Origin: a virus
Virus record (IMG/VR): IMGVR_UViG_3300012920_000126
Location: 1-34,305 of that record
Strand: one strand, 5' to 3'
DNA: 34,305 nucleotides
Shown: positions 687-33,529 of the stretch, in pieces
Position numbering within the stretch: position 1 is the stretch's first letter
How the letters are laid out: every line of letters starts with the position of its first letter
Notes under the pieces: generated by a model
Databases searched by the model: none
Seen by the model: only the letters and a program-made list of their open reading frames with translations
Told to the model about the DNA's origin: nothing
Translations under genes and position numbers: made by a program

Positions 687-708
687 AGCTGTCATTTTAT
701 TGACAGCT
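687..708 (-). terminator. Perfect 8-bp stem-loop at the end of the SGNH gene
   Basis: AGCTGTCA, a 6-nt loop, then TGACAGCT: a perfect inverted repeat overlapping the stop codon of the gene that ends at 707. On the minus strand a six-T run follows 6-7 nt later (675-680). The gap between stem and T run is longer than in a standard intrinsic terminator, so it could instead be an attenuator or an mRNA 3' end stabiliser. It separates the upstream operon from the late promoter at 665-672. Confidence 0.45.
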
Positions 709-1456
709 ATTTCATCTTTCTATATATGTCATGCAATAAGCGTGCAAATCCTTGGTGGGTCTTAACGCCGGGGTGTCCTCTAGGCATTAAGTCTTTGTAG
801 GTAAATGCGGAAAGACTGTACATATCTGTCCAGTGTCCCATTCCTAATTTTGAGGTGGGTTTCAAACATCTCAGATGATTTTCTATCTCATCTATGTAGT
901 CTTTGTTTCCGGTTTCTATCACTGATTTTAGGTTCTCATACATCTGCTTGTGAAATACTCCCTGAATTAGTTTGATACCTCTAGCATCACATATGTTCTG
1001 TACAGCAAGCATTTTACCTAAATCATGCAGTATTGTTGTGTGATGAGTGTATACATCATTATAATATTTGTACAATGTTCCATGCATATCCTCTTGAAGA
1101 TTTCCAACTCTCTCCGGAGAAAATTGAACCATACCATTAAACTTTAGAAGTTTATATGTTGGATCAATATCTCTATATTCAGGTTTCAACATTTCCATTC
1201 TTTGCCATGCAGTCCATATTATGACCATATGTGTAGGTTGTCTTTTCTTATCACGTTTTGCTAAGTAGGTCATAGTCTTTCGAAAGATCAAATCATTACC
1301 AGCGCCGGGCACGGCTAGATTAACATACTTTGGGAAATGCATTCTTTCTGCAAGTAAATGGGGAAAGGTCAAAGGTTGATGTGTTGCAGCCGGATGATCA
1401 TATGCGCCGGGCAACTCATCCCCCCAAACAAAACTACATCCATTAGTCAGTAACAT
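707..1456 (-). CDS. SGNH/GDSL-like hydrolase, copy 1
   Basis: A 249-residue protein. The N-terminus (LLTNGCSFVWGDELPG) matches SGNH block I, with Ser 8 as candidate nucleophile (GCS in place of GDS). Block II is NLAVPGAGND (about 47-56). The C-terminal GHPGVKTHQGFA (about 226-237) supplies the catalytic His of the usual DxxH block V. Family members are esterases, lipases, acyltransferases or sugar O-deacetylases; the substrate cannot be read here. It is a tandem paralogue of the next gene, which overlaps its start by 14 bp. The start is ATG at 1456, because the paralogues align from this Met. There is no signal peptide, so it should be cytoplasmic or virion-associated. Confidence 0.65.
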   Translation of the reverse strand: MLLTNGCSFVWGDELPGAYDHPAATHQPLTFPHLLAERMHFPKYVNLAVPGAGNDLIFRKTMTYLAKRDKKRQPTHMVIIWTAWQRMEMLKPEYRDIDPTYKLLKFNGMVQFSPERVGNLQEDMHGTLYKYYNDVYTHHTTILHDLGKMLAVQNICDARGIKLIQGVFHKQMYENLKSVIETGNKDYIDEIENHLRCLKPTSKLGMGHWTDMYSLSAFTYKDLMPRGHPGVKTHQGFARLLHDIYRKMK

Positions 1457-2294
1457 TTTCTAATCCTTGAAATATATCGTACAATTGATCTGCGTATGCT
1501 GAGTGTGTTCCTTCACATGGATGACCTTTCGGGTAGATAAAGAAATCATCATTCTCTCTTGCCATTGAGGTCATGTCTTGATAGTGACCTAAACCAACTC
1601 TGCATTCGGGTCTAAGGTATTCTAGATAGAATAGAACTTCATGATACCAGTGTGGATATCTATCTTTCTGCATCAAACATCTCTTAAGGTTTGACCATAA
1701 ATCTGGGTGTATCATTCCTTGAATTAATTTGATACCTTTTGCGTCACACATGTCTTGTATAATACACATGTAGTTAAGATGATGTAGAATAGGAGTGAAC
1801 ATCGTATAGACATGATTGACCCAATCACACGCTATCCGAACAATACGTTTTTCTTCTTCAGGGTTCCAGTCTAATTTTTCATCGTCTGTGATATCCCAAT
1901 GTCTTAGTCCGAAAGCAAGCGCTCTACTATAATGATCAGGTATAATCTGGTTCATGTTGGTCTCTTGCAACATGTACATTGATTTATCTTCGTTGGGATG
2001 AAAGTCTGTAACTACTTCTATGCGTCCCCATGATGACCATGTGAGAACTAAGTAGTCTACTTCTTTTGAGGATTGTTGAAAAAATGTGGTGGTGCGTCGA
2101 AATATCTTTTGATTAGACGAACCGTTGTGAGCTAGGTTGACGTAATCGACGCCTAGTTTTTCTGCAAGTTTGTGTGTGAATGTAAGGTGATGATGTTTGC
2201 CCTCAAGAATTTTTCCATTCTTATCCGCTCGTCGAGCGCCGGGCAACTCATCCCCGTATGTAAAGCTATCGCCGTTCGTTAGTAGTATTCCCAT
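1443..2294 (-). CDS. SGNH/GDSL-like hydrolase, copy 2
   Basis: A 283-residue paralogue of the gene downstream, sharing LLTNGxSFxxGDELPGA at the N-terminus, the LxxxWxxWxRxE segment, a C-DA(R/K)GIKLIQG block, the LG.GH..DM segment and a C-terminal GHP....TH motif. This copy keeps the canonical GDS around the candidate nucleophilic Ser. I place the start at ATG 2294 (MGILLTNGDS), which matches the paralogue start; a TTG at 2321 would add nine residues. The gene overlaps the stop of the DUF3310 gene by 29 bp. Tandem duplication followed by divergence is inferred; the substrate is unknown. Confidence 0.65.
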   Translation of the reverse strand: MGILLTNGDSFTYGDELPGARRADKNGKILEGKHHHLTFTHKLAEKLGVDYVNLAHNGSSNQKIFRRTTTFFQQSSKEVDYLVLTWSSWGRIEVVTDFHPNEDKSMYMLQETNMNQIIPDHYSRALAFGLRHWDITDDEKLDWNPEEEKRIVRIACDWVNHVYTMFTPILHHLNYMCIIQDMCDAKGIKLIQGMIHPDLWSNLKRCLMQKDRYPHWYHEVLFYLEYLRPECRVGLGHYQDMTSMARENDDFFIYPKGHPCEGTHSAYADQLYDIFQGLENVTD

Positions 2295-2775
2295 CTTCCG
2301 TATCATGCACATGTAAAGCAATCAACGCATAGTGCAAGACCTTCAACAAATCTTTACGATTGTATCCGCCTTTATGACCATAGCGTTGTGCGTATTTAAG
2401 GATGTTCCCTAAACAGAAACCCATCCCGTGTCCACCATCAATGATGAACTCAGTTGCTTGATATTTATTACGAGAATAATGTTCACCATATGTGTTGTCC
2501 ACATAGGTTTTCAATTCATCAATCAAACGATCTTCACTATATTTGTATTCAATACTCATATCATTACCAATTGTAAAACTGGGTACGTTGATCTCGTACT
2601 CCGGATCAAGGGTGATCTGGTAATCAGCATCGGTTACAAAGAGAGTCTCTCCGGAAAGTTTCTCAGACTCCTGAGTTTGCTTTCGTTTCTCTTCTAGATG
2701 TCTCCGATTCATTTCATCCCACTCTTGTGGAGTGATGTCATCAATACTTCCAGTTGGTTTATTTTTCGTTGCCAT
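2266..2775 (-). CDS. DUF3310-like phage protein
   Basis: A 169-residue protein with a charged, variable N-terminal half. The C-terminal domain (about 105-160) has the DUF3310 pattern: ATEFIIDGGHGMGFCLGNIL, KYAQRYG.K.GY.RKDLLKVLHYALIAL. This small helical domain is common in tailed phages and is sometimes annotated as nucleotide-kinase-related, but its biochemical role is not established. ATG start at 2775. It overlaps the adenylation-like gene by 17 bp and so is probably co-translated with it. Confidence 0.6.
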   Translation of the reverse strand: MATKNKPTGSIDDITPQEWDEMNRRHLEEKRKQTQESEKLSGETLFVTDADYQITLDPEYEINVPSFTIGNDMSIEYKYSEDRLIDELKTYVDNTYGEHYSRNKYQATEFIIDGGHGMGFCLGNILKYAQRYGHKGGYNRKDLLKVLHYALIALHVHDTEDGNTTNERR

Positions 2776-4213
2776 CGTAGTATCTCACTCTTCCTTCTTC
2801 AAAAGATTCAAATCCGTATTCGAACGCATTCTTCAATGCGAACCAATCACGATATCTGGAGTTCTCCAAACAGAATGCCATTCTATCAATTACTTCTATC
2901 TGTGTCAAGCCTAAATTGTCAAGAATTTTCATTGTCTCTGGTTTTACTTCCTCAAAGAGACAAAGATAGTTTCTACCATACTTTCTCAATAGGAAGAAAT
3001 CATCATGACCTAGTATTTGTTCTACTCGTTCTTGATATGGGTTGACATAAACCGATCCCATATGCATGTACTCACCGTTGGATTGTTTCTCTACTCCAAA
3101 CGATAGTGGATAGAAGGCACCGTCTTTATGTCCTCTCACGAACATAGTATGCTTCTGTGGACTGTACACACACTCATAATAGTTATCCAGAATGAATCCA
3201 ACTGACCCTTCGACGTAGTCACCTTTTATTGGTTTGATAAAAAGCGTTAGTGACTTGGATCGTGTTTCACCATAGAATAGACTACAATTGATTCCTTTCT
3301 CTTCTACTAGTTGGTGTAAGAAAGGTGTAGGTGTACTGAAAGGACATACGAATTGACAAGTCGAACCATCGAAATCTGATTTCTGCAATCCATTCAAACT
3401 TCTCTCTAGGGTCTCTTCATTCTTAAACCAGATAACTTTCTTCTCTGGTCTCTTGTATAGTTTCTGTAATGCCTTAACCATCTGTGGTTTCCACATGTTG
3501 AGTCGATCCCACCAGTTGACAAAGTAATGTTCTTTACAACCCATAAAGGCTGGAATAACTGCATTGATAAATGACATACAATGTACAGAATTAAATGTAT
3601 GGATACCTAACCCACCATAGTAGTTAAACATCTTGAACTGTCTATGTGCCAAAGACCAACACTCTTGATGTGTATAGTACTGGAACTCTAGTCCATCTTC
3701 GTGTTCACCATCCGCATGTGTGATCCAAAATGGATCGTCGGGAAACACTTCGGGTTGTTCGATCTCCATAGGTTCAGTGTAGTTCTCAATATCCACAGAG
3801 TCTACTTGAATCATCTCATATGGAAGATGGTCATCATAGTAATCTCTCTGGAGACTCTCAAGCATTCGAACCGCAACACTGTCCCACAAACCAACTTCTG
3901 CTTTAATAGTAGTAGCAGGATAATCTATCTTCGCATCTCTGTTCCATGACAGACTGGATGCAAATACCTGTACACCTAACTCTGCAAGTGCAAAGAGAAG
4001 TGCTGTTGTTTGTACATTGTTTTTTACTAGACCAATACCTACGACATCACCCTTACGCAAACCATACTCATTAGTAAGGTATGCTTTCCAGTTGTCGATT
4101 AGTTTCCAATATCTCTGTTTGTTATAAGGTTCTGGATCACCCAACATCTCATGCATGATGTTTTGTAGATAAAGGTCATCTCTATTCTGGATTACGTATC
4201 TATCAATAATCAC
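2759..4213 (-). CDS. Divergent ANL-superfamily (acyl-adenylating enzyme-like) protein
   Basis: A 484-residue protein. The N-terminal part (about 28-88: YNKQRYWKLIDNWKAYL...GLRKGDVVGIGLVKNNVQT, then LLFALAELGVQVFASS) follows the early N-terminal pattern of acyl-CoA synthetases and adenylation domains. A later FYGETRSKS (about 316-324) resembles the YGxTE motif A5. The Gly/Ser/Thr-rich phosphate-binding loop (motif A3) is not recognisable where expected (about 167-180, ITHADGEHEDGLEF), and I see no clear C-terminal A8/A10 lysine motif. It may therefore be a catalytically altered ligase or an acyl-binding relic. The start is GTG at 4213 with GAGG upstream. It sits between a 2OG-oxygenase-like gene and DUF3310/SGNH genes. 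Fold assignment is moderate, function open. Confidence 0.5.
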   Translation of the reverse strand: MIIDRYVIQNRDDLYLQNIMHEMLGDPEPYNKQRYWKLIDNWKAYLTNEYGLRKGDVVGIGLVKNNVQTTALLFALAELGVQVFASSLSWNRDAKIDYPATTIKAEVGLWDSVAVRMLESLQRDYYDDHLPYEMIQVDSVDIENYTEPMEIEQPEVFPDDPFWITHADGEHEDGLEFQYYTHQECWSLAHRQFKMFNYYGGLGIHTFNSVHCMSFINAVIPAFMGCKEHYFVNWWDRLNMWKPQMVKALQKLYKRPEKKVIWFKNEETLERSLNGLQKSDFDGSTCQFVCPFSTPTPFLHQLVEEKGINCSLFYGETRSKSLTLFIKPIKGDYVEGSVGFILDNYYECVYSPQKHTMFVRGHKDGAFYPLSFGVEKQSNGEYMHMGSVYVNPYQERVEQILGHDDFFLLRKYGRNYLCLFEEVKPETMKILDNLGLTQIEVIDRMAFCLENSRYRDWFALKNAFEYGFESFEEGRVRYYDGNEK

Positions 4214-4874
4214 TTTCTATTTCCTCAATCAATTGATCTCTAAGGTATATCGCTTGTTCATCTTCCAGACTTCCCTTACCTTTATTTACAAATTTATATG
4301 CAAGGGTAATACGTTCTCCACCAGCATAAGCGGCATGCCAACATATGTTTTCTGGTTCGTCTTCAGGCCCAAAGTAGTAGTGTCTACACTGCCATCCTTC
4401 TACGTCTTGAATGGTGACCACCTCATCTTTTGCGATATCGTAGTATCTAAAATATCCATTACCATCTGACCAAGTAAACAATACTTGATATGCAGTTGCG
4501 TCATAGTTGGTGTGCCATCCCACGAAACCGCCGGGCGGATAATAAGATAAAAGAGCACTGGTGTGTGCTCCTAACTCTTTTGCAAATTCATACTTCACCA
4601 TGTTCATATATGATTCCCAAATAGTTGGGTCTTCACGTACCATCTTTGCGATGGGTTGGGCAAAGTGTTTATCAGGTGCGCCTACGAGTTCACCCTTGAG
4701 AGATGTCTCTCTTAGGTACTCTTCACTCGTATACTTCTGACCTAGACTCTTATCCATCTCTGAACTATACACTTGGTATTTGGGATTATTGTATCCCTCA
4801 ACCATAAACATTTCATCTTTGAAATGGTCGAGTGTTTTTAAGAGTCCTTGGTTTCTTATCGTGACTTCAGACAA
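4203..4874 (-). CDS. 2OG-Fe(II) oxygenase-like protein, paralogue A
   Basis: A 223-residue double-stranded-beta-helix protein. YPPGGFVGWHTNYD (about 112-125) carries the first His (H121). The usual HxD carboxylate position is Asn (N123). The distal His is H180 (CWHAAYAGGER) and a 2OG-binding-type Arg is R188. The strand FTWSDGNGYFRYYD lies between them. It is paralogous to 32903-33529, with identical H-H (59) and H-R (8) spacing. I place the start at TTG 4874: it has AGGA seven bases upstream, overlaps the previous stop by only 8 bp, and its N-terminus (SEVTIRNQGLL) aligns with the ATG start of the paralogue (INIEIRNKNVL). Substrate unknown; the Asn raises the question of whether it hydroxylates at all. 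Confidence 0.6.
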   Translation of the reverse strand: MSEVTIRNQGLLKTLDHFKDEMFMVEGYNNPKYQVYSSEMDKSLGQKYTSEEYLRETSLKGELVGAPDKHFAQPIAKMVREDPTIWESYMNMVKYEFAKELGAHTSALLSYYPPGGFVGWHTNYDATAYQVLFTWSDGNGYFRYYDIAKDEVVTIQDVEGWQCRHYYFGPEDEPENICWHAAYAGGERITLAYKFVNKGKGSLEDEQAIYLRDQLIEEIESDY

Positions 4875-5139
4875 GCTGTAGTCCTGAGACTGCTTCACGA
4901 TATGCTTTCGCAAAGTCTGGGTTTGTTTCTGTCACATAGACATACTGTTGAAATGCACAATGTGTAGGATTCTCTGTACCTGTCATGCAGATACCACGAG
5001 CAAAACCAACACCTTGATCACCAGCAATCAACATACGAGGATCAGTGAGGTAGATAACTCCACTCTCTTCTTTCTCGTATTTACCGATATATTCACCACT
5101 CACAGTAACAACTGTTACTACATCATTTTTCTTCATCAT
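4867..5139 (-). CDS. Conserved small phage protein of unknown function
   Basis: A 90-residue protein beginning MMKKNDVVTVVTVSGEYIGK. The alternating beta pattern and Gly positions in the first 60 residues would fit a small barrel (SH3/Sm-like), but no family is recognised. Two adjacent ATGs (5139 and 5136) are possible; the second is better spaced from the AGGAAGG SD. It overlaps the AbrB-like mini-gene by 17 bp upstream and the TTG start of the oxygenase gene by 8 bp downstream, so it looks translationally coupled on both sides. Confidence 0.55.
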   Translation of the reverse strand: MMKKNDVVTVVTVSGEYIGKYEKEESGVIYLTDPRMLIAGDQGVGFARGICMTGTENPTHCAFQQYVYVTETNPDFAKAYREAVSGLQLV

Positions 5140-7864: not shown

Positions 7865-8906
7865 TGTCAACAATCTCTTCCATCTCTACTTGAGTAGGTA
7901 ATCCGATCTTGTATTGCTTCTCTAGGAAATCAGCGAAGTCGGTCAACTCAAATACAGGTGCCCAGAATTCTTCTTCTAGGGTCTGAGCCTGTCGAACTTT
8001 TGGATCGACCAGTTCTCCAGTTTCTTTATCCACACGGCAATACCAACCATTAGAAGGCTTAGCAACGTAACCACCAGCAAGAGCAGCGTCCAAAAGACCG
8101 CTAAAACGCTGTACGCCACCTTCCCAAGAAACTGAGATAGGTATCTTAGACTTTTCTTTAACATAACGTGATTTCTCCACGTTGATGACAAAGTGATAAC
8201 CTTTTATCTCTGTACCAACTTTGTCTTGTTGTCTACCCAATATCCAAATGTTATCGGCACTATAGTAGATTCCTGTGCCACCCCCGACTACATCTTTCGG
8301 GAACAATCCGATCTCTTTATATGTATGGTTTACGGCAAGCATAGGAATGTTTTTCATTGCAAGGTATGGTGTTGCCATACGGAACAAACCTTTGAGTGCT
8401 TTTGCACGTGACATATCTGCAACAGACTTTTCGTTGATTGCATCTTCGAGTTCTTTCTTAGATGCAAGGTTACCGATAGAGTCAATCACTACGATGACAT
8501 TGTCATCACGTCCCAACTCTTCTAACTGTGCAATCAGATCGAACTTGAGTTCTTCTACATTTGTGATAGGAGTATGCAGAACCCTAGAAGTGTCAATTCC
8601 AAACTGCTCGAAATAAGACTGGGGGGAACCAAACTCACTATCATAGAATAACATGACCGCATCTTCTTTCTCCCTTAGATATGCACCCGCCATCAATAAT
8701 GCAAATGACGTTTTGAAATGTTTTGAAGGGCCTGCAAGAACTGTAAGTCCCGGCGTCACTCCACCATTTATTGATCCAGATAGTGCCACGTTAACCATCG
8801 GCACATCTGTGGACACCATGTCCTTTTCAGTGAAGAATTTACTCTCCGACAGAACTTCTGTCGTTTTGATCTTTGAGTTCTTCCTCAGTTTGTCCATCAC
8901 GCTCAT
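7851..8906 (-). CDS. uvsX: UvsX RecA-like recombinase
   Basis: A 351-residue strand-exchange protein that forms filaments on ssDNA for recombination-dependent replication. Walker A-type GPSKHFKTS (59-67) is the UvsX variant. Walker B is VIVVIDSIGNLAS, and MLAVNHTY plus DVVGGGTGIYYSAD correspond to the L1/L2 region. The start is ATG 8906 (MSVMDKLRK), six bases after a GGAG SD; an ATG at 8912 and a TTG at 8918 are too close to that SD. The upstream UDP-glucose-dehydrogenase gene overlaps it by 68 bp, an unusually long overlap for this genome. Confidence 0.93.
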   Translation of the reverse strand: MSVMDKLRKNSKIKTTEVLSESKFFTEKDMVSTDVPMVNVALSGSINGGVTPGLTVLAGPSKHFKTSFALLMAGAYLREKEDAVMLFYDSEFGSPQSYFEQFGIDTSRVLHTPITNVEELKFDLIAQLEELGRDDNVIVVIDSIGNLASKKELEDAINEKSVADMSRAKALKGLFRMATPYLAMKNIPMLAVNHTYKEIGLFPKDVVGGGTGIYYSADNIWILGRQQDKVGTEIKGYHFVINVEKSRYVKEKSKIPISVSWEGGVQRFSGLLDAALAGGYVAKPSNGWYCRVDKETGELVDPKVRQAQTLEEEFWAPVFELTDFADFLEKQYKIGLPTQVEMEEIVDNADN

Positions 8907-9855
8907 TGTCATCTCCAAATTTAATATTATTTACTTTCTCTCGTTCGTCTAGTTCATAGTTCTTACGGTAACGATTGTTAACCTCAAGAACTTTTTCAAT
9001 CAAGTCAAACGAAACTTTCTCACCATTCTCAGTTTCAAATTCTGAGAACTTCAAAAACGCAGTCGTGTCTTTAGGTAGACATGCGCCACCAAATCCACGT
9101 TTGCGATCATACCCCGGCACACGAGTGTGTCCGATACCAACACGATCATCCATACCCATAACACGTGTAATAATGTTATAACTACATCCGAAAGCATTGA
9201 CAAGATCAAACAGTTGATTAAAGAATGTCACCTTGGTTGCAAGGAAACTGTTGATACCATACTTAACGAATGAAGCTTCTTGTGCAGACATCAGCATGAA
9301 TTCTTTTGATGAACACAAACTAAAGTAGTCGTAGATTTGAACTAACTCTCTAGTTGCTTCTGGTATACCACCAAGTACATGGAATGGTGCATTAACAAAT
9401 TGTTCTTCTGCACTCTTCTCAGTGAGGAACTCAGGGTTATATACAAACCTCTTGAGACCATCATCGAACATAGAGTTATACAGACGATCAATAATGTCTG
9501 GTGTAATTGTTGATTTAACAACAACAAGTGCTTCGGTATGTTCAATAAGTTGAAGCACTGCATCTTCTACAATAGACGCATCAACAAATCCTGTCTCAGA
9601 ATTCATTGGAGTCGGTGCACAGATAAAGACACACATTGGATTAAACTCCACCATGCTGTCAAGGTCTGCATCATACTTTGGATCGGTAATGTGCAGATCA
9701 ATAAGAGGATGCGTGAATGCATACTCTACTGCCTTACCGACAAACCCATGTCCTACAATTCCTAACTTAAAAGGATTGGTTGGACTAATGGGTGGTGGCC
9801 CCTGCTTCTCACCATCGGGTTGAGGCGGGTTAAATTTATCAAAATCATCAGCCAT
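8839..9855 (-). CDS. UDP-glucose/GDP-mannose 6-dehydrogenase family, C-terminally truncated
   Basis: A 338-residue NAD-dependent nucleotide-sugar dehydrogenase homologue (UDP-glucose to UDP-glucuronate, or a related reaction). After a Pro-rich leader (1-28) comes the NAD-binding LGIVGHGFVGKAV (31-43). Catalytic-site motifs follow: NPEFLTEKSAEE (140-151, Glu), SFVKYGINSFLATKVTFFNQ (195-214, Lys and Asn) and GGACLPKDT (256-264, nucleophile Cys 259). Family enzymes usually have about 400-450 residues; here the C-terminal UDP-binding Rossmann domain is missing and is replaced by a highly charged tail (about 298-338) that overlaps uvsX. ATG at 9855 overlaps the epimerase gene by 8 bp, consistent with a joint pathway. 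Confidence 0.8.
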   Translation of the reverse strand: MADDFDKFNPPQPDGEKQGPPPISPTNPFKLGIVGHGFVGKAVEYAFTHPLIDLHITDPKYDADLDSMVEFNPMCVFICAPTPMNSETGFVDASIVEDAVLQLIEHTEALVVVKSTITPDIIDRLYNSMFDDGLKRFVYNPEFLTEKSAEEQFVNAPFHVLGGIPEATRELVQIYDYFSLCSSKEFMLMSAQEASFVKYGINSFLATKVTFFNQLFDLVNAFGCSYNIITRVMGMDDRVGIGHTRVPGYDRKRGFGGACLPKDTTAFLKFSEFETENGEKVSFDLIEKVLEVNNRYRKNYELDEREKVNNIKFGDDNERDGQTEEELKDQNDRSSVGE

Positions 9856-10915
9856 TGGTTACATCTCCTAATTTCGGTATCCATTTCTTATACCAGTTAT
9901 AAAATCTCTTCACCCCTTCATCAATAGAAACTTTAGGATCATATCCCAAGTCTTGTAACTTGTCAGTATTACTCCAAGTTTCTTGAGTGTCCGCTGGGTG
10001 TTTCGGACATAGATTCATGATTGCTTTCTTTCCGGTTTCCCGTTCGATTGCTTTAATGAAATCCATAAGTTCCACTTGCTCTCCCCGTCCGATATTAAAT
10101 ATCTCACCAGACTGGATAGCATTCCTATCAAAGTTCTCTAACGTGAGAACAATTCCATCGATGATGTCATCAATGAAAGTGAAGTCACGTTTCATATTCC
10201 CATAATTATACACATCTATTTGTTGCCCGTCAAGTATTTTTTTCGTAAATTGAAAAAGTGCCATATCAGGTCTACCCCAAGGCCCATACACAGTAAAGAA
10301 TCTGAGTCCAACATTCTTTAGACCAGATATCTTAAACTGACATTCGTTCATGTACTTACTATAGGCATAGGCATTCAACTGGTGTGCCTGTACAAAATCT
10401 TCTTTCCATCCATTTTCAGTGATAGGTGTTCCACCATAGACTGAACTGGTAGATGCGTATATGATTTTTGGTTGTTCTTTCTTGGGAAGACTTTTAAAAA
10501 ACTCAATTAGAGTTTGTGTTCCATCAATATTGTTTGAATGGTATTCTTGTTCTTTACCAAATGAATCACGTACACCAGCATGAGCGGCTAAGTGAATGAC
10601 AAAATCAAAGTATGGATGATCGTCAACACCCTCTCCTTTATGATCTACAATACTATGCCACTTTTGAGTGTCTTGTATAGCTTCATGAGTATGTTTGTGC
10701 ATAAAATGCCAGTCATCGTTACTTCGGATATCTTTAGTATCCCAGACGTTTAACTTCATCTCATGTTTACGTGCATTTTTAAGAGTGTGTCTGTATAGGT
10801 GGTTGTTGAGGTTATCCATTCCGATAACATCGTGACCCTCTTCTATTAGTCGCACAAATAAGTGCGAACCAATGAATCCGGACGCACCCGTAATTAAAAT
10901 TCTTTTTTTCTCCAT
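9848..10915 (-). CDS. UDP-glucuronate 4-epimerase-like NAD-dependent epimerase
   Basis: A 355-residue extended SDR enzyme. It has the NAD-binding GASGFIGS (10-17), DNLNNHLY (34-41), HLAAHAGVRDSFG (108-120), STSSVYG (155-161) and catalytic Y183-xxx-K187. The RFFTVYGPWGRPDMALFQFT stretch (205-224) and the DNLN signature are characteristic of UDP-glucuronate 4-epimerases (UDP-GlcA to UDP-GalA) rather than GalE. About 25 extra residues lie near 62-100. It directly follows a primase-like gene (TAATG overlap) and precedes the UDP-glucose dehydrogenase, so the pair would make UDP-galacturonate from UDP-glucose. Confidence 0.82.
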   Translation of the reverse strand: MEKKRILITGASGFIGSHLFVRLIEEGHDVIGMDNLNNHLYRHTLKNARKHEMKLNVWDTKDIRSNDDWHFMHKHTHEAIQDTQKWHSIVDHKGEGVDDHPYFDFVIHLAAHAGVRDSFGKEQEYHSNNIDGTQTLIEFFKSLPKKEQPKIIYASTSSVYGGTPITENGWKEDFVQAHQLNAYAYSKYMNECQFKISGLKNVGLRFFTVYGPWGRPDMALFQFTKKILDGQQIDVYNYGNMKRDFTFIDDIIDGIVLTLENFDRNAIQSGEIFNIGRGEQVELMDFIKAIERETGKKAIMNLCPKHPADTQETWSNTDKLQDLGYDPKVSIDEGVKRFYNWYKKWIPKLGDVTNG

Positions 10916-14899: not shown

Positions 14900-15690
14900 G
14901 GAATAATTTTCATATAGGGGTGTCGAGTCCAAGGTTCCTCAATGTGTCGGTCAATGTATCCGTGGTGATCTTGAGTCACGCACAGACTTTTAGATACTAC
15001 TTGCGTAGTTGGGTTGGGTACTGAATCGATTTTATTCGGGTCTCCGGTATTATAGGCCTTGAAGATATTTCTCCCAAAATAAAGGGTATCACAACCATTC
15101 CAAGGATGAATAACGATATTGTCTTTTCCATTATAGTCTCGTTTACTTAAGTAGTGTTCCACGTAGTTTTTAAAAAGTCTTTCCATGACTCCATAAGGCC
15201 CACCGTTGATCCAGAACTGTTGTTCTTGTAACAACTTATACATCCATCGAGCACACATGGTGGTCATAGTATAACAACCCATAAACAAACCTATGTTTGC
15301 ATACTCCGGTTGCTTGTTTTCGATATAAGCTAACAGACTACGAAACTCTCGTTCATGTTCAGGATACAAATACGTATCATGTTCCATGATCAGAAACCGT
15401 TCTTCAGACTGACCTTGACGTTTCATAAGTTCCCAGTGAGAACACATGCCCGCTTTTTCAGTGGGAGAATGATCATCCGGTTTTTTGGCATGATCCATGA
15501 TTGCCTCTGAGGGTAACCAATTGTAAAGAGAAATCTTGTTCTCAAACTCAGAGTGTTCTGGTGTGAAGGCCTCAAACGTATTAAAAGTTAGAGTACCATC
15601 TTGTATTAGGTTTTTGAAAGACTCTCTAGAAATATATGCATATTCCTCAGATCGTTCATCACCCTTCATTACAATTTGCCAAACTTTCAC
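14896..15690 (-). CDS. GT25-like glycosyltransferase
   Basis: A 264-residue protein. KAGMCSHWELMKRQ (79-92) followed by RFLIMEHDTYLYPE (98-111) matches the GT25 (LPS glycosyltransferase) layout GC..SH...w.......lIlEDD, with EHD in place of EDD as the metal/sugar-nucleotide acidic motif. MGCYTMTTMCARWMYKLL, then FWINGGPYG and a later DTLYFGRNIF fit the rest of the fold. It could use the UDP-uronates made by the enzymes at 8839-10915, but the acceptor is unknown. The start is GTG 15690 with GGAG five bases upstream, 16 nt after a 6-bp GC hairpin. Its stop is embedded in the gp43 promoter. Confidence 0.6.
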   Translation of the reverse strand: MKVWQIVMKGDERSEEYAYISRESFKNLIQDGTLTFNTFEAFTPEHSEFENKISLYNWLPSEAIMDHAKKPDDHSPTEKAGMCSHWELMKRQGQSEERFLIMEHDTYLYPEHEREFRSLLAYIENKQPEYANIGLFMGCYTMTTMCARWMYKLLQEQQFWINGGPYGVMERLFKNYVEHYLSKRDYNGKDNIVIHPWNGCDTLYFGRNIFKAYNTGDPNKIDSVPNPTTQVVSKSLCVTQDHHGYIDRHIEEPWTRHPYMKIIP

Positions 15691-15705
15691 ATCATCTCCA
15701 TAGTT

Positions 15706-15724
15706 GGGGGGACTTTCACCCCCC
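15706..15724. other. G6/C6 hairpin between two small genes
   Basis: Six G, a 7-nt loop (ACTTTCA), six C. On the plus strand it is followed by TGTTTTT (15725-15731), a good intrinsic terminator shape for plus-strand transcription. On the minus strand it ends 16 nt before the GTG of the glycosyltransferase gene and directly follows the 30-residue peptide gene, where it could instead limit ribosome access. Confidence 0.5.
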
Positions 15725-15729
15725 TGTTT

Positions 15730-15822
15730 TTACATTAGGGGTTGGAAAGCCGTGACCATGATTGCGACTACCCACAAACACATCACCGCCTCACCGACCC
15801 TTTCTACTAGGTCAGTTTTCAT
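15730..15822 (-). CDS. 30-residue single-pass membrane peptide
   Basis: ATG 15822 to TAA 15730, reading MKTDLVERVGEAVMCLWVVA then IMVTAFQPLM: a charged 10-residue head followed by a 17-19-residue hydrophobic helix. A GAGG SD sits five bases before the ATG (minus strand GCGAGGTAATTATG). It occupies the gap between hsp20 and the glycosyltransferase gene. No family recognised; it could be a small membrane modulator. The coding call rests on SD, size, helix pattern and position. Confidence 0.5.
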   Translation of the reverse strand: MKTDLVERVGEAVMCLWVVAIMVTAFQPLM

Positions 15823-15843
15823 AATTACCTCGCTGTTGATAGA

Positions 15844-16266
15844 TTAACTGATATCGATTTTGCGAGGTCTCTTCTCTTCGGGAAGTTCAAACTTCAATGT
15901 AATTGCAAGTATCCCATCCTTTAGTGAAGCACCGTCAACATGGACGTACTCCGACAGTCTAAAAACTCTCTTGAACTTTTTCTGCGAAATCCCTTTGTGA
16001 ATGTATTCAGATGGGGAATCTTCATTCTTCACTTTCTCACCACTAACGGTAAGAGTTCTTTCATCTTGTTCGATATCCAGATCGTCCAAAGTAAATCCAG
16101 CAACCGCTACTTCGATAAGATAATTATCTTCACTTACCTTCACAATATTATGTGGCGGATAAGTGTCTGTAGCATGTTTGGCAACCCAATCAAGTTCTTG
16201 AAACAGGTGGTCAAACCCTACAAACGAATTGCGTGGAAAGAGTGTATTAGCTTTAAGATTAGTCAT
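15844..16266 (-). CDS. hsp20: Hsp20-family small heat-shock protein
   Basis: A 140-residue ATP-independent holdase. The N-terminal arm (FDHLFQELDWVA) is followed by an alpha-crystallin domain (about 38-132) with PPHNIVKVSEDNYLIEVAVA, the G.TLDDLDIE..ERTLTVSG pair, FKRVFRLSEYV and LKDGILAITLKFE. A C-terminal basic tail carries an IxI motif (KIDIS) used in oligomerisation. Such genes are common in marine T4-like phages and are thought to protect scaffolding or virion proteins during assembly. ATG 16266 with a strong AAGGAG SD. Confidence 0.93.
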   Translation of the reverse strand: MTNLKANTLFPRNSFVGFDHLFQELDWVAKHATDTYPPHNIVKVSEDNYLIEVAVAGFTLDDLDIEQDERTLTVSGEKVKNEDSPSEYIHKGISQKKFKRVFRLSEYVHVDGASLKDGILAITLKFELPEEKRPRKIDIS

Positions 16267-16381: not shown

Positions 16382-16846
16382 ATGGCTACTTATAAATTTG
16401 ACAGCGCATCTTTACCCGATAGTGGTGACGTATTAACATGGAACAATACAGCAAATAGAATGGAATGGCAATCTGCCGTTCTTGTTACTGTTCCGTTTAT
16501 GTTTAATGACTCTGATCAAGAAACAATTACATACACTCCCCCAAAGGGATCATACGTTGCTGGTGATCATCACGCAGATGTTTCTATGACTGTCTCTGGT
16601 GGTGGATTGTCCGGAACCTTATCTTTGAATCAAGGTGTGGTCGTTGGGCCTACAGACGGAACTCAGATTTCTATGGTGGGTGAAGCACACATCATTACAC
16701 TTACTGATTCAGATAGTACACACAATATACCAACAAGTCCGACAGACTCAGTCAATGATTCGGATACTGACACAGATACAGTCAGACTCAGAGTTCTTGA
16801 TAAGGTAGTTGTTCCTTCTATTGCTTTGGTAACAAGACCAGTCTAG
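16382..16846 (+). CDS. Lone plus-strand beta-rich, probably virion, protein
   Basis: A 154-residue protein, the only complete plus-strand gene here. The opening ATYKFDSASLPDSGDVLTWN followed by N.ANRMEWQS resembles short N-terminal repeats of phage fibre and structural proteins. The middle is Gly/Ser/Thr-rich beta (TVSGGGLSGTLSLNQGVVVG), and an acidic Asp/Ser/Thr stretch (DSVNDSDTDTDT, about 124-135) precedes the C-terminal strand. Acidic DSD/DTD runs can bind calcium. I do not recognise a family. ATG 16382, with AAGGA about 11 bases upstream. It is convergent with the next gene, and the two share the palindrome CTAG as stop codons. Confidence 0.6.
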   Translation: MATYKFDSASLPDSGDVLTWNNTANRMEWQSAVLVTVPFMFNDSDQETITYTPPKGSYVAGDHHADVSMTVSGGGLSGTLSLNQGVVVGPTDGTQISMVGEAHIITLTDSDSTHNIPTSPTDSVNDSDTDTDTVRLRVLDKVVVPSIALVTRPV

Positions 16847-17379
16847 AAATAGATCGACGGATCAGGATCACCTTCAACACCAAAACTAAATGTCACACGT
16901 GAAATACGTGGATAGATTTGATGATGGGTTCCTCTTGGAATCCAGACATAGTCGCCCGGCTTAAAATCAAACTCTTCGTTGTTGTTGAACCCTTCCACCT
17001 TCAAACCGATAGTACTAATAACTTGTACTAAGAACACATCCATACTATCTTTATGCCAAGGGTAACTGTCAGACTCTTGACCAAATCCGGTGAAAGCGAT
17101 ATTGGTAATGTGTCTGTTATGACCGTGTAACGCAAAGACATCTTCCATCTCTTCTACAATCTGTCTTGCAAATTCAGGAGCGGATGGTCTACTGTGAAAC
17201 GCATTCAATCCGATCCGCATCTTCTTTGAGTTGCAATCTACACTTTCAGACGGGTGTGAATCCAACATATCCATATGTTGATTCCAATCATAACTAAAAT
17301 CCCCTTCGGGAAGAGAGCCAAAAAAGAATTGCTTATTCGCAATATCTTCTTCGTGCCCCTCAAATATGTTGAAGTGCAT
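16843..17379 (-). CDS. JmjC/cupin-type 2OG-Fe(II) oxygenase-like protein
   Basis: A 178-residue protein. SYPWHKDSMDVFLVQV (105-120) supplies the HxD pair (H109, D111). GDYVWIPRGTHHQIYP (142-157) supplies the distal His (152/153) in a cupin-style PxGxxH context. This fits the JmjC/cupin_8-like oxygenases that hydroxylate protein, RNA or small-molecule substrates using 2-oxoglutarate. Unlike the paralogue pair at 4203 and 32903, its metal triad looks complete. Start ATG 17379 overlaps the regA stop (TAATG), so it is co-translated with regA. Confidence 0.65.
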   Translation of the reverse strand: MHFNIFEGHEEDIANKQFFFGSLPEGDFSYDWNQHMDMLDSHPSESVDCNSKKMRIGLNAFHSRPSAPEFARQIVEEMEDVFALHGHNRHITNIAFTGFGQESDSYPWHKDSMDVFLVQVISTIGLKVEGFNNNEEFDFKPGDYVWIPRGTHHQIYPRISRVTFSFGVEGDPDPSIYF

Positions 17380-17789: not shown

Positions 17790-18171
17790 CTTTATTCACC
17801 TTATTCTTTATAAATTCAATTTGGTCGGAAGATAAGAGAGATACTGCTTGACGTGCCTTTTCATTGCTATAGCCATAGTACTCTTTTATCAACTCAACAT
17901 TGCTTTCCAAGTCTGCCTTTGCCCACTTGGAGAAACGTTTCCGTTTCCTAATGATATTTATAAAAAATTCATATTGTAGGCGGTTGTCAATATGGTGGTG
18001 TACATTCATCGCATTCGCAAGATGTACGGTGTCCGGAAAGTATGATAAGGATCGATTGATCACGAAGGGAACATATGCGTTCTCTTCTTCCGTATCAACC
18101 ATTACATTCTTTTTACTGAGGTTGATTGTATTTAAAAAGTCAAATGGACTAAGCTTCTTCTGTCCAGCCAT
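17776..18171 (-). CDS. 62: Clamp-loader small subunit gp62
   Basis: 131 residues. AGQKKLSPFDFLNTINLSKK, then INRSLSYFPDTVHLANAMN, a hydrophobic LQYEFFINIIRKRKRFSKWA, and KEYYGYSNEKARQAVSLLSS follow the short gp62 of exo-T4 phages (T4 gp62 is longer, about 187). It works with gp44 to load the gp45 clamp. In T4, genes 44 and 62 are adjacent; here six other genes and a small ORF lie between them. ATG 18171 follows GAGG with eight-base spacing; a GTG at 18186 is less likely. Confidence 0.85.
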   Translation of the reverse strand: MAGQKKLSPFDFLNTINLSKKNVMVDTEEENAYVPFVINRSLSYFPDTVHLANAMNVHHHIDNRLQYEFFINIIRKRKRFSKWAKADLESNVELIKEYYGYSNEKARQAVSLLSSDQIEFIKNKVNKGGRK

Positions 18172-18862
18172 AGTTGTAATCCTCACGGTAAATACGCATT
18201 ATACCATGTAATTGGTTTTCAGTCAATGCGGATTTAGGGCCATAATGTACAGGTGCAGTTTCATTCTTGTGGATCATAGATAAATCTACTCCAGCTCTTG
18301 CACCAAGGAAAGCAAGAACATTACCGAATTTACTCATCGGAAATATTCTATTATATTGGGCACGATTGCCCATGAAATCTACTTGTCGGAAAAAGTGAGA
18401 GTTATATATCTCACCACTCCATACACCATCAATAACGTCATCAAGACTATCTGGTAGTTCACAAACGTCTGAAGTTTTCTTGGGGTCTTCTCCAGTGTGA
18501 TTACCAGATTTGATATACTCACACGCAGATAAGAATCTTTCTACAGGATCACGAACAACTGCGACTCTATAAGCACCTTTACGGAAAGGTAGAATATCAC
18601 GATCACCAAACTTACCGATCTCTTCCATTCTATCTCTTTTAGTCCCAACCTGAAGTAAATCAAATTTATCTCCTTCACGTCCTAGTACTCTCATGAGAGC
18701 AACTTTCAAACTAGTCATTCCATTCTTAGGACATAGTCTTATGTCAATTGCGTTCGGGAAATATAAAATATTATCTGTGAATGTGGTAACACCCCATGCA
18801 CGATGTCTTACGACTTTGCGTAATTCTTGTTGGTAGAGTTCTTGTTCTGTTAATTCTGTCAT
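18149..18862 (-). CDS. Sulfotransferase (PAPS-dependent, Sulfotransfer_2-like)
   Basis: 237 residues. RLCPKNGMTSLKVALMR (about 42-58) matches the PAPS 5'-phosphosulfate loop (xxPKxGtTsl). YRVAVVRDPVERFLSACEYI (about 98-117) matches the 3'-phosphate loop (hhRdPheRhhSay). A later central IYNSHFFRQVDFMG segment and a C-terminal HKNETAP with basic surroundings fit carbohydrate-type sulfotransferases. It would transfer sulfate from PAPS to a sugar or protein acceptor. The start is ATG 18862 because it overlaps the dCMP deaminase stop (ATGA); an ATG at 18889 is possible. Confidence 0.78.
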   Translation of the reverse strand: MTELTEQELYQQELRKVVRHRAWGVTTFTDNILYFPNAIDIRLCPKNGMTSLKVALMRVLGREGDKFDLLQVGTKRDRMEEIGKFGDRDILPFRKGAYRVAVVRDPVERFLSACEYIKSGNHTGEDPKKTSDVCELPDSLDDVIDGVWSGEIYNSHFFRQVDFMGNRAQYNRIFPMSKFGNVLAFLGARAGVDLSMIHKNETAPVHYGPKSALTENQLHGIMRIYREDYNYGWTEEA

Positions 18863-19272
18863 TTTATCTGTACCGTTGGTATATGGCATTTATTAAGGAA
18901 ATCTATTCCTTCTGTTCCTTTAGTATATTTATCAGAATAGAACACTTCAACTATACCTGATTGGTAAATTAATTTAGCACAATCTATACAAGGTGCCATA
19001 GTAACATATAAAGACGATCCATGACTTGATTCAGGAGAGGCCGCTACTTTTGCAATAGCATTGGTCTCTGCATGTAACACTTCATGTTTAGTAACGTTGT
19101 CTTCTTCGCAAATGTTACTCCAACCTGAAGGCATTCCATTGTACCCAATAGAAATGATTCTATTGTTTTTTACAATGACACATCCAACTTTGGCACGTTC
19201 TGCCCAAGATAATTTTGCGTATACATGGGCCGCTTCCATGTGGGCGTGATCCCACTTAGTCAAGGATTCCAT
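18859..19272 (-). CDS. cd: Deoxycytidylate (dCMP) deaminase
   Basis: A 137-residue zinc deaminase converting dCMP to dUMP, the substrate of ThyX. Zinc/catalytic motifs are HAE (67-69, in VLHAETNAI) and PCxxC (94-98, in MAPCIDCAKLIYQSG). The substrate loop GYNGMPSGW (43-51) is typical of dCMP rather than cytidine deaminases. ATG 19272. It overlaps DUF2061 upstream (17 bp) and the sulfotransferase downstream (ATGA). Confidence 0.93.
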   Translation of the reverse strand: MESLTKWDHAHMEAAHVYAKLSWAERAKVGCVIVKNNRIISIGYNGMPSGWSNICEEDNVTKHEVLHAETNAIAKVAASPESSHGSSLYVTMAPCIDCAKLIYQSGIVEVFYSDKYTKGTEGIDFLNKCHIPTVQIK

Positions 19273-28898: not shown

Positions 28899-28928
28899 AG
28901 TATATCACATCGTTTGCTTTCTTGTCAA
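28899..28928 (-). promoter_or_regulatory. Host-type promoter of gp47
   Basis: TTGACA (28923-28928), 18-bp spacer, TATACT (28899-28904; 5/6). The upstream oxygenase gene's TGA stop (28925-28927) is inside the -35 box. Confidence 0.7.
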
Positions 28929-29488
28929 GCGAAACTTAAATTACCTGCTACTGTGATTCTATGCATCTCTGGGTTTGAGTAAAACGGATATACTGCATGT
29001 TTCAATTTCGCATCAAACATAAACATCGTATCCTCAAACGTTTGGTCTACGGGTAACATACTATTTACAATCCCCCCGTATGGGTTTGTATATTGAAACG
29101 AAAAGTGTCCCGCACACGATCCGCCGTTTACATCTGGATACCTAGACATCTCATGTTCTATAAGATAAGGTATCTCGTGGAATATAACAAAACTTAAATC
29201 TCCACCATGTGAGTGCGGGGGATTAAACTCCCCCACCGCCTGATAATTGACCCATAGGTCATTCAGTTTTGTGGGTTTGGCCTTATATGCCCATGCTGTT
29301 GCAACAACAAAGTCCTTAACACTTTCTCGACATTCTCTTAACACATACTCTTGTTTGATATTACCGGAAAGTTTATGGTTGTAACGTTCTTCGGGTATAT
29401 CAAAGAATACTTCGGATCGAATATCTTCAGTTACTTGTTGTGGTACTGAGCAGTGCCAAAAATTACACTCACTTAGAACTTTTTTCAT
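28925..29488 (-). CDS. 2OG-Fe(II) oxygenase-like protein (Oxy_5/TIGR02466 type)
   Basis: 187 residues. LWVNYQAVGEFNPPHSHGGD (78-97) matches the family's W.N....G..n.pH.H. pattern (H92, H94). LSFVIFHEIPY follows, then a distal FDAKLKHAVYPF (H164) and HRITVAGNLSF (R177, 2OG-type Arg). Such proteins are frequent in marine phages; substrates are unknown, with protein or modified-base hydroxylation among the candidates. ATG 29488 overlaps gp55 by 20 bp. Its stop codon forms part of the gp47 promoter. Confidence 0.68.
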   Translation of the reverse strand: MKKVLSECNFWHCSVPQQVTEDIRSEVFFDIPEERYNHKLSGNIKQEYVLRECRESVKDFVVATAWAYKAKPTKLNDLWVNYQAVGEFNPPHSHGGDLSFVIFHEIPYLIEHEMSRYPDVNGGSCAGHFSFQYTNPYGGIVNSMLPVDQTFEDTMFMFDAKLKHAVYPFYSNPEMHRITVAGNLSFA

Positions 29489-32902: not shown

Positions 32903-33529
32903 CTATTCCTCACTTATAACACTTAAACAATCATTCCAATATTCTTCGTCGAATCCTAACATCCAACTCCAAGTCATTCTCCAACATTCAGTAGCGGCAC
33001 AATGATACACTAATTGATCATCATGGTATCCACCGAAATATCCTGCTTTGAGAGTCCATCCTGCCTTATCACGTATTGTGACATTCTCTTTACGGACTCT
33101 GTCATAATATCTAAACCAACCATCACCAGTCTCACTCCACGTAAAGACTAGATTATATGATGGCGCATTAGCATTATTATGCCATTCAATAAATCCGCCG
33201 GGCGGATATGCTATTGTCAATGCAGAACAGGAGAGTCCTAACAACTCTTTCATCTGATTGTCGAAAGACAATAACTCACTCTTATATCCTTGATCGTCAT
33301 CTACAGGATGTTTCAAAAGATATCCATGACCTAACTCAGCATGACCTTCATGAGATGTTCCCATACTCATTACTTTGTCACGGTATTTATCTGAGATATA
33401 AGTCATTATATCTTCTGGGTTACCTGTACTACGGCACTTCTCAGATATTTGATATTTCTCAGTGTAAGTATATCTTATTTTATCAAGTATGTCAAGAACA
33501 TTCTTGTTCCTGATTTCAATGTTAATCAT
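32903..33529 (-). CDS. 2OG-Fe(II) oxygenase-like protein, paralogue B
   Basis: 208 residues, paralogous to the product of 4203-4874. It shares the N-terminal I.IRN...L..LD, YPPGGF..WH.N, FTW....G.FRYYD, E.VTI.D..GW and a terminal H...R. Here the metal-site candidates are H117, N119 (Asn again at the usual Asp position), H176 and R184. ATG 33529 follows the tail-tube stop by one base. The 5' coding region contains a strong early promoter (33467-33495), so a shorter product from ATG 33406 is possible, but the aligned N-terminus supports the long form. Confidence 0.62.
   Translation of the reverse strand: MINIEIRNKNVLDILDKIRYTYTEKYQISEKCRSTGNPEDIMTYISDKYRDKVMSMGTSHEGHAELGHGYLLKHPVDDDQGYKSELLSFDNQMKELLGLSCSALTIAYPPGGFIEWHNNANAPSYNLVFTWSETGDGWFRYYDRVRKENVTIRDKAGWTLKAGYFGGYHDDQLVYHCAATECWRMTWSWMLGFDEEYWNDCLSVISEE
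33467..33495 (-). promoter_or_regulatory. Strong host-type promoter inside the oxygenase paralogue B gene
   Basis: TTGACA (33490-33495), 17-bp spacer, TATACT (33467-33472; 5/6), starting 34 bp inside the coding region. It would give uvsY and uvsW early transcription independent of the late tail-tube gene upstream. Confidence 0.6.

Follow-up and report, generated by a model that had tools for sequence, protein, structure and literature searches.

A degenerate protein of predicted ANL fold in a marine T4-like phage and its possible catalytic-looking partner

An overlapping gene run and the predicted fold of P0001

Can a protein built like an acyl-activating enzyme take part in such chemistry after losing its phosphate-binding loop, and do the genes translated beside it belong to the same activity? 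The question is posed by 34 kb of DNA from an uncultured marine T4-like phage (the window; all 34,305 nucleotides of IMG/VR record IMGVR_UViG_3300012920_000126), for whose flanking genes phage C48C1 (Kyanoviridae) is the nearest annotated relative. On its minus strand, downstream of DnaB-like helicase and ThyX genes, five overlapping genes follow one another in the order 2OG-like, ANL, DUF3310, SGNH, SGNH. The overlapping frames bear out the translated run described in the initial annotation, including the 484-residue open reading frame (P0001), and the end coordinate proposed there, 4874, coincides with the preferred TTG start of the 2OG-like gene, as homologues start only at residues 12-16 of the longer frame. 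The features of the run are as follows:

707..1456, minus strand: SGNH-family gene 2; Ser/Gly/Asn/His blocks conserved; overlaps SGNH-family gene 1 by 14 nt
1443..2294, minus strand: SGNH-family gene 1, from ATG 2294 (a longer frame runs from TTG 2321); Ser/Gly/Asn/His blocks conserved; overlaps the DUF3310 gene by 29 nt
2266..2775, minus strand: DUF3310 gene (Pfam PF11753, E 1.2e-10); its start covers the last 17 nt of the ANL gene
2759..4213, minus strand: P0001 (ANL-1), 484 aa, GTG start; predicted degenerate ANL fold
3260..3274, minus strand: A5-equivalent YGETR of P0001, residues 314-318, Arg318 replacing the Mg-binding Glu (coordinates from residue numbers)
3683..3721, minus strand: position of the lost P-loop (A3) in P0001, residues 165-177, THADGEHEDGLEF (coordinates computed from residue numbers)
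4203..4874, minus strand: 2OG-Fe(II)-oxygenase-like gene (P0002 family); its end covers the first 11 nt of the ANL gene

Searches with P0001 alone gave no match in Pfam, three weak matches in NCBIfam, every one of them to an acyl-CoA synthetase, and nothing or weak matches only in PHROGs, the PDB, 50,697 phage records and viral contigs. A six-sequence profile returned only chance matches in the PDB (ATLF-like, lipase A). Homologues were reached with the 2OG-like neighbour as bait: among 80 loci fetched, 16 (L003-L018) carry one at the same place, with identities of 57-59% and 36-37%. A PF00501 search of the long contigs behind the 2OG loci then yielded a second ANL gene, ANL-2, in two phages (G003, G005). 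P0001 aligns with ANL-2 over residues 17-351 by BLASTP (E 3e-16) and over residues 26-400 by hhalign (probability 99.5%), and these matches, together with the 16 positional homologues, indicate that its reading frame is more than a product of chance. Scores against PF00501 (AMP-binding) form a gradient, from no direct match for P0001 through E 0.023 for its relative P0010 to 3e-10 for ANL-2, the ANL-2 members P0012 and P0013 lying above the Pfam cut-off. The combined and ANL-2 alignments recruited further viral contigs, giving 71 relatives and later 145, 80 of which were kept.

AlphaFold2, applied to P0001 with a 34-sequence alignment and no template, produced a model with a pLDDT of 85 and a pTM of 0.86; the alignment includes ANL-2 rows, so that the model is not wholly independent of the homology argument. 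A model based on six close sequences reached a pLDDT of 45 and was set aside. In a Foldseek search with the retained model, ANL enzymes made up 50 of the 50 matches listed (probability 1.00, E 3e-18 to 2e-15), including EntE, ACSM2A, MatB, AasS and MenE. This rules out the unrelated fold that the initial annotation had named as a possible outcome of structure prediction. The TM-scores by query are moderate (0.55-0.62), which may reflect divergence and differing lid positions. The predicted domains are an N-domain of about residues 1-390 and a lid domain of about residues 390-470. By predicted fold and by descent, P0001 is thus placed within the ANL superfamily of class I adenylate-forming enzymes (acyl- and aryl-CoA synthetases, NRPS A-domains, luciferase), to which it is linked by this domain arrangement and by sequence continuity via ANL-2. 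It differs from them in its low identity (9-15%), in the loss of the P-loop and of four catalytic invariants, and in being known so far from viral contigs only. ANL proteins are already annotated in phages: two "AMP-dependent synthetase/ligase" entries of uncultured Caudovirales (BFVD A0A6J5L571 and A0A6J5L563) share the ANL fold (E 2e-20 and 2e-14) and, compared by fold and identity alone, are 12-15% identical to P0001.

Lost catalytic residues and three viral ANL classes

Motifs were tabulated for 65 representatives across the ANL classes. The P-loop of a functional class I adenylating enzyme takes the form [YT]-[ST]-[ST]-G-[ST]-T-G-x-P-K; the A3 position of P0001 reads THADGEHEDG, in agreement with the earlier failure to find a phosphate-binding loop. 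The YGxT-like motif that had also been noted is YGET at the A5 position (Y314-G-E-T317), followed by Arg318 where the Mg-binding Glu is expected, and this arginine is invariant among the P0001-type members of alignment A1. The A7 Asp and A8 Arg are absent, the columns reading YPLSFG and YMHMGS, as is the A10 Lys (LENSRYRDW; ANL-2 has TK). Among 374 class I adenylating enzymes, Glu328, Gly384, Asp418, Arg433 and Lys524 of Thermus thermophilus LACS are invariant, and all but Gly384 bind AMP, Mg or substrate (PMC6122825). In P0001, all four of the non-glycine invariants are replaced, as is the P-loop. Judged by these residues, it is almost certainly not a conventional adenylating enzyme, and the earlier idea of acyl activation, applied to P0001 itself, is not supported.

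The acid-binding side presents a different picture. The A4 His that contacts the acid, His207 in CBL, is 65% conserved (PMC6122825), and the A4-position His211 is invariant in all 65 representatives, the truncated class included. From motif order, His211 of P0001 appears equivalent to CBL His207. An invariant His211 alongside lost ATP-site residues suggests that the substrate side has been kept and the ATP side lost. The catalytic motifs were lost stepwise within ANL-1, the L127/L168 type being intermediate: it keeps TSG (THTSGYSGDD), FGETD and GR, and has Arg at A10. The dN/dS ratio is about 0.15 for the close ANL-1 pair L003/L005, similar to that of ANL-2, which argues for purifying selection on ANL-1; together with an open frame in all complete copies, it rules out a decaying pseudogene.

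As far as known from viral contigs, P0001 and its relatives appear to form a virus-only ANL family. In a tree from a quick search, with some long branches, three classes separate: ANL-1 (SH-aLRT 100), ANL-3 (SH-aLRT 100) and ANL-2. The ANL-1 proteins, of the P0001 type, are degenerate and 472-489 aa long; ANL-2 proteins have about 395-445 aa and keep most catalytic residues; ANL-3 proteins are degenerate and truncated, at about 300-335 aa with some longer. The P-loop STSG[ST]T occurs in 33 of 33 ANL-2 sequences, and [YF]GS[IV][DE]T, the A7 Asp and the A10 TK are present in every complete member. Where A5 Glu is expected, L127 and nearly all ANL-2 have Asp (Glu once), and a short tail, QDTK[LIV]N..QLRG, occupies the place of most of the lid. 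The reading of its TK as A10 is supported by the L143 type, in which a longer lid precedes the same tail. With Asp for the invariant A5 Glu and most of the lid missing, ANL-2 activity is not assured.

The genes preceding ANL-2 are nrdA-nrdB and one of GIY-like type (all named by eye); ANL-3 is usually adjacent to ANL-2 or overlaps it. Two ANL-3 forms bear a methyltransferase-like C-terminal domain, one in L152 (2853-4364, 503 aa; PF13578, E 2e-4, below cut-off) and one in L137 (2910-4370, 486 aa; assigned by similarity). In part of the ANL-2 clade without ANL-3, the gene directly before ANL-2 (L100 5323-5934, L106 5412-6032) encodes a PP-loop protein that by eye resembles QueC, with SGGVES and a C-rich tail. 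The longer-lid ANL-2 of L143 (4986-6299) lies away from the nrd locus, and ANL-3 was not seen there. Scanning the genomes of 84,980 species of bacteria and archaea with the ANL-2 alignment, by a pattern-based method that finds near relatives only, returned no relative, so that a host origin could not be traced; a sequence-profile search of solved structures with ANL-2 gave none either.

Alternation of ANL-1 and ANL-3 beside ANL-2

ANL-2 without ANL-3 is a feature of the L163 and L143 types and of the G003/G005/L226/L234/L235/L106/L110 clade. All five contigs on which ANL-1 and ANL-2 are found together (G003, G005, G032-G034) lack ANL-3, and no ANL-1 was found on the contigs bearing ANL-3. In G003 the two proteins are the L006 ANL-1, which does not differ from the one in L003, and P0012; in G005 they are P0010 and P0013. 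By sample, ANL-1 accompanies ANL-3-less ANL-2 in 12 of 29 cases, against 0 of 55 for ANL-3-bearing ANL-2 (p 5e-7; samples non-independent). Records that have both a 2OG locus and the nrd region carry either both ANL-1 and ANL-2 (4 records) or neither (7 records), with a Fisher p of 0.003 by record and 0.012 by lineage; two of the four, G032 and G033, were counted via nrdAB-like genes beside the same ANL-2 in L165. The L012-type phage G004 lacks the nrd stretch and therefore carries no information on this pairing. In the tree, ANL-3-less ANL-2 with a known ANL-1 partner occupies two lineages apart from each other, and the ANL-1 type differs between them; the independent lineages with both genes on one contig number only three. 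For the L143-type ANL-2, L106 and L110, no partner was seen. As a pattern of co-occurrence across contigs, samples and records, this indicates that, in the role of degenerate partner to ANL-2, ANL-1 probably takes the place of ANL-3, and the catalytic-looking and dead forms suggest that these phages have an active/inactive enzyme pair of their own.

A virus-only family with alternating catalytic-looking and dead classes was not found in the open-access papers searched, PHROGs, the 50,697 phage records or the 84,980 species genomes, the pattern-based scans covering near relatives only and entries close to the window being possibly withheld. The papers searched likewise yielded nothing relevant on a phage ANL-SGNH-2OG system, and no pseudo-ANL/ANL heteromer of the kind considered below in phages. 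If true, the family would give one of the best-studied enzyme superfamilies a branch specific to phages. Its members would form a natural series, from catalytic-looking ANL-2 by way of the partly degraded L127 type to P0001, the dead form, whose role can be tested directly thanks to the gene-pairing pattern. The family would also give a predicted fold and a likely partner to marine phage contig genes that are blank in Pfam and PHROGs, and point to acyl-activating chemistry not seen among the cultured phages searched.

Neighbouring genes and the weighing of explanations

The window and three further ANL-1 lineages share the order 2OG-ANL-DUF3310-SGNH(-SGNH), one of the four having a single SGNH gene. 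A second locus, in one clade, again unites ANL with an SGNH gene of this family and with a 2OG gene, PhyH. The five-gene module of the initial annotation is partly supported by these arrangements. Strict dependency among the five genes is ruled out, since 64 of the 80 homologous 2OG loci lack ANL, mostly with DUF3310 and SGNH following the 2OG gene, and the L127-type ANL has no SGNH. Many ANL-2 loci have neither an SGNH nor a 2OG gene, and several ANL-2/ANL-3 contigs are without any SGNH (G025, 99 kb). The set is real but loose, and a chemical link of the SGNH and 2OG genes to ANL is plausible but loose. In phage C48C1 (L002), a NifU-like gene (15675-16046) stands between 2OG and SGNH, replacing ANL and DUF3310, and in L127 a cell-wall hydrolase gene (4396-4926; PF07486, E 2e-22) lies between the 2OG and ANL genes.

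The identification of two SGNH genes is upheld. All 12 members of alignment A7 match DUF6071 weakly (best E 9e-10), the scores of the SGNH proteins P0004 and P0005 falling below the curated cut-off, and Ser, Gly, Asn and His are kept at 98-100% in 70 unique homologues, the Ser of P0004 being Ser19. These residues are common to the phage genes and to the DUF6071/SGNH (GDSL) hydrolases, whereas the phage genes are without the Asp of the DxxH block; a sequence-profile search of the PDB gave no relative. The same SGNH family accompanies ANL-2 in L139, L149, L152, L154, L157, L250-L253 and L257, overlapping ANL-2, ANL-3 or both, and in G027-G030 the ANL-2-associated gene is the sole copy found on the contig.

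The 2OG-oxygenase-like label is weak. Five of 12 members of the P0002 family match a PHROG 2OG-Fe(II) family weakly (best E 3e-4), Pfam gives no match, and a sequence-profile search of solved structures found no relative of the family. H134-T-N136, H193 and R201 are invariant in 45 of 45 sequences of the P0002 type (numbering of the longer frame), so that HxN stands in place of the HxD of the iron triad, as it does in the paralogue P0007 (window 32903-33529); a phage genome holds up to three members. The PhyH gene between ANL-3 and ANL-2 in L137 and L152 (PF05721, above cut-off, E 1.2e-10) belongs to a 2OG subfamily other than that of P0002, with its HxN motif. SGNH and PhyH join ANL-2 in one clade, amounting to about one independent event.

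These observations are most readily accommodated if P0001 is a full-length ANL-fold pseudoenzyme that has kept its acid-binding side and most likely works with catalytic-looking ANL-2 in trans, a tentative reading held with somewhat less than even confidence. ANL-2, encoded after ribonucleotide reductase genes, would adenylate a carboxylic acid, while ANL-1, or ANL-3 in other lineages, would bind, present or gate the acid or the acyl-adenylate; alternatively, ANL-1 or ANL-3 might regulate ANL-2 as a heterodimer. In some lineages the SGNH proteins might act on the acyl group by transfer or hydrolysis, and the 2OG enzyme might hydroxylate the acyl product, both being weaker links. That the acylation target is a glycan is no more than a reasonable guess, prompted by nucleotide-sugar genes near the run, one UDP-glucose dehydrogenase-like (8839-9855) and one epimerase-like (9848-10915), named via syntenic C48C1 annotation. 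A fuller scheme, speculative and rather doubtful, would make this a virus-only two-protein acid-activating system, in which a compact ANL-2, its lid cut down to a TK tail resembling A10, and an obligate dead partner (ANL-3 in cis or ANL-1 in trans) supply SGNH acyltransferases and 2OG hydroxylases, and these in turn modify a molecule on the surface of the phage or the host.

It is also conceivable that P0001 acts without a partner, as a sponge or decoy sequestering a host carboxylic acid, acyl-adenylate or similar compound. Retention of the A4 His211 despite the lost ATP site and purifying selection on ANL-1 would both be expected of such a protein; however, the presence of ANL-1 where ANL-2 occurs without ANL-3, and its overlap with operon genes, are left unexplained, and this role is considered unlikely. 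The data are better matched by a dead partner of ANL-2 than by such a binding role, which the initial annotation had offered as its second option. The main idea of that annotation, a self-sufficient acyl-modification module in which P0001 activates the acid via unusual residues, draws on the overlapping gene order that the window has in common with three further ANL-1 lineages and on the reunion of ANL, 2OG and SGNH at the second locus. It is nevertheless very improbable, given that the P-loop and four residues invariant in 374 class I enzymes (PMC6122825) are replaced in P0001 and that ANL is missing from 64 of 80 related 2OG loci. Finally, P0001 could be a passenger in a variable slot between 2OG and DUF3310, with an unrelated role such as anti-defence and neighbours that matter for expression only. 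The slot lacks ANL in most related phages, holds the NifU-like gene in C48C1 and, in L127, has the cell-wall hydrolase beside ANL, but a passenger would not be expected to show alternation of ANL-1 with ANL-3 or the recurrence of same-family SGNH and a 2OG gene beside ANL-2 at another locus; its probability is put low.

Elsewhere in the window, a sulfotransferase-like open reading frame was judged by eye at 18149-18889 (CPKNGMTS...VVRDPVERFLSA), a JmjC/cupin-type protein above the Pfam cut-off is encoded at 16843-17379 (PF08007, E 8e-8), and an additional 2OG gene lies at 28925-29488 (phrog_81, E 6e-21).
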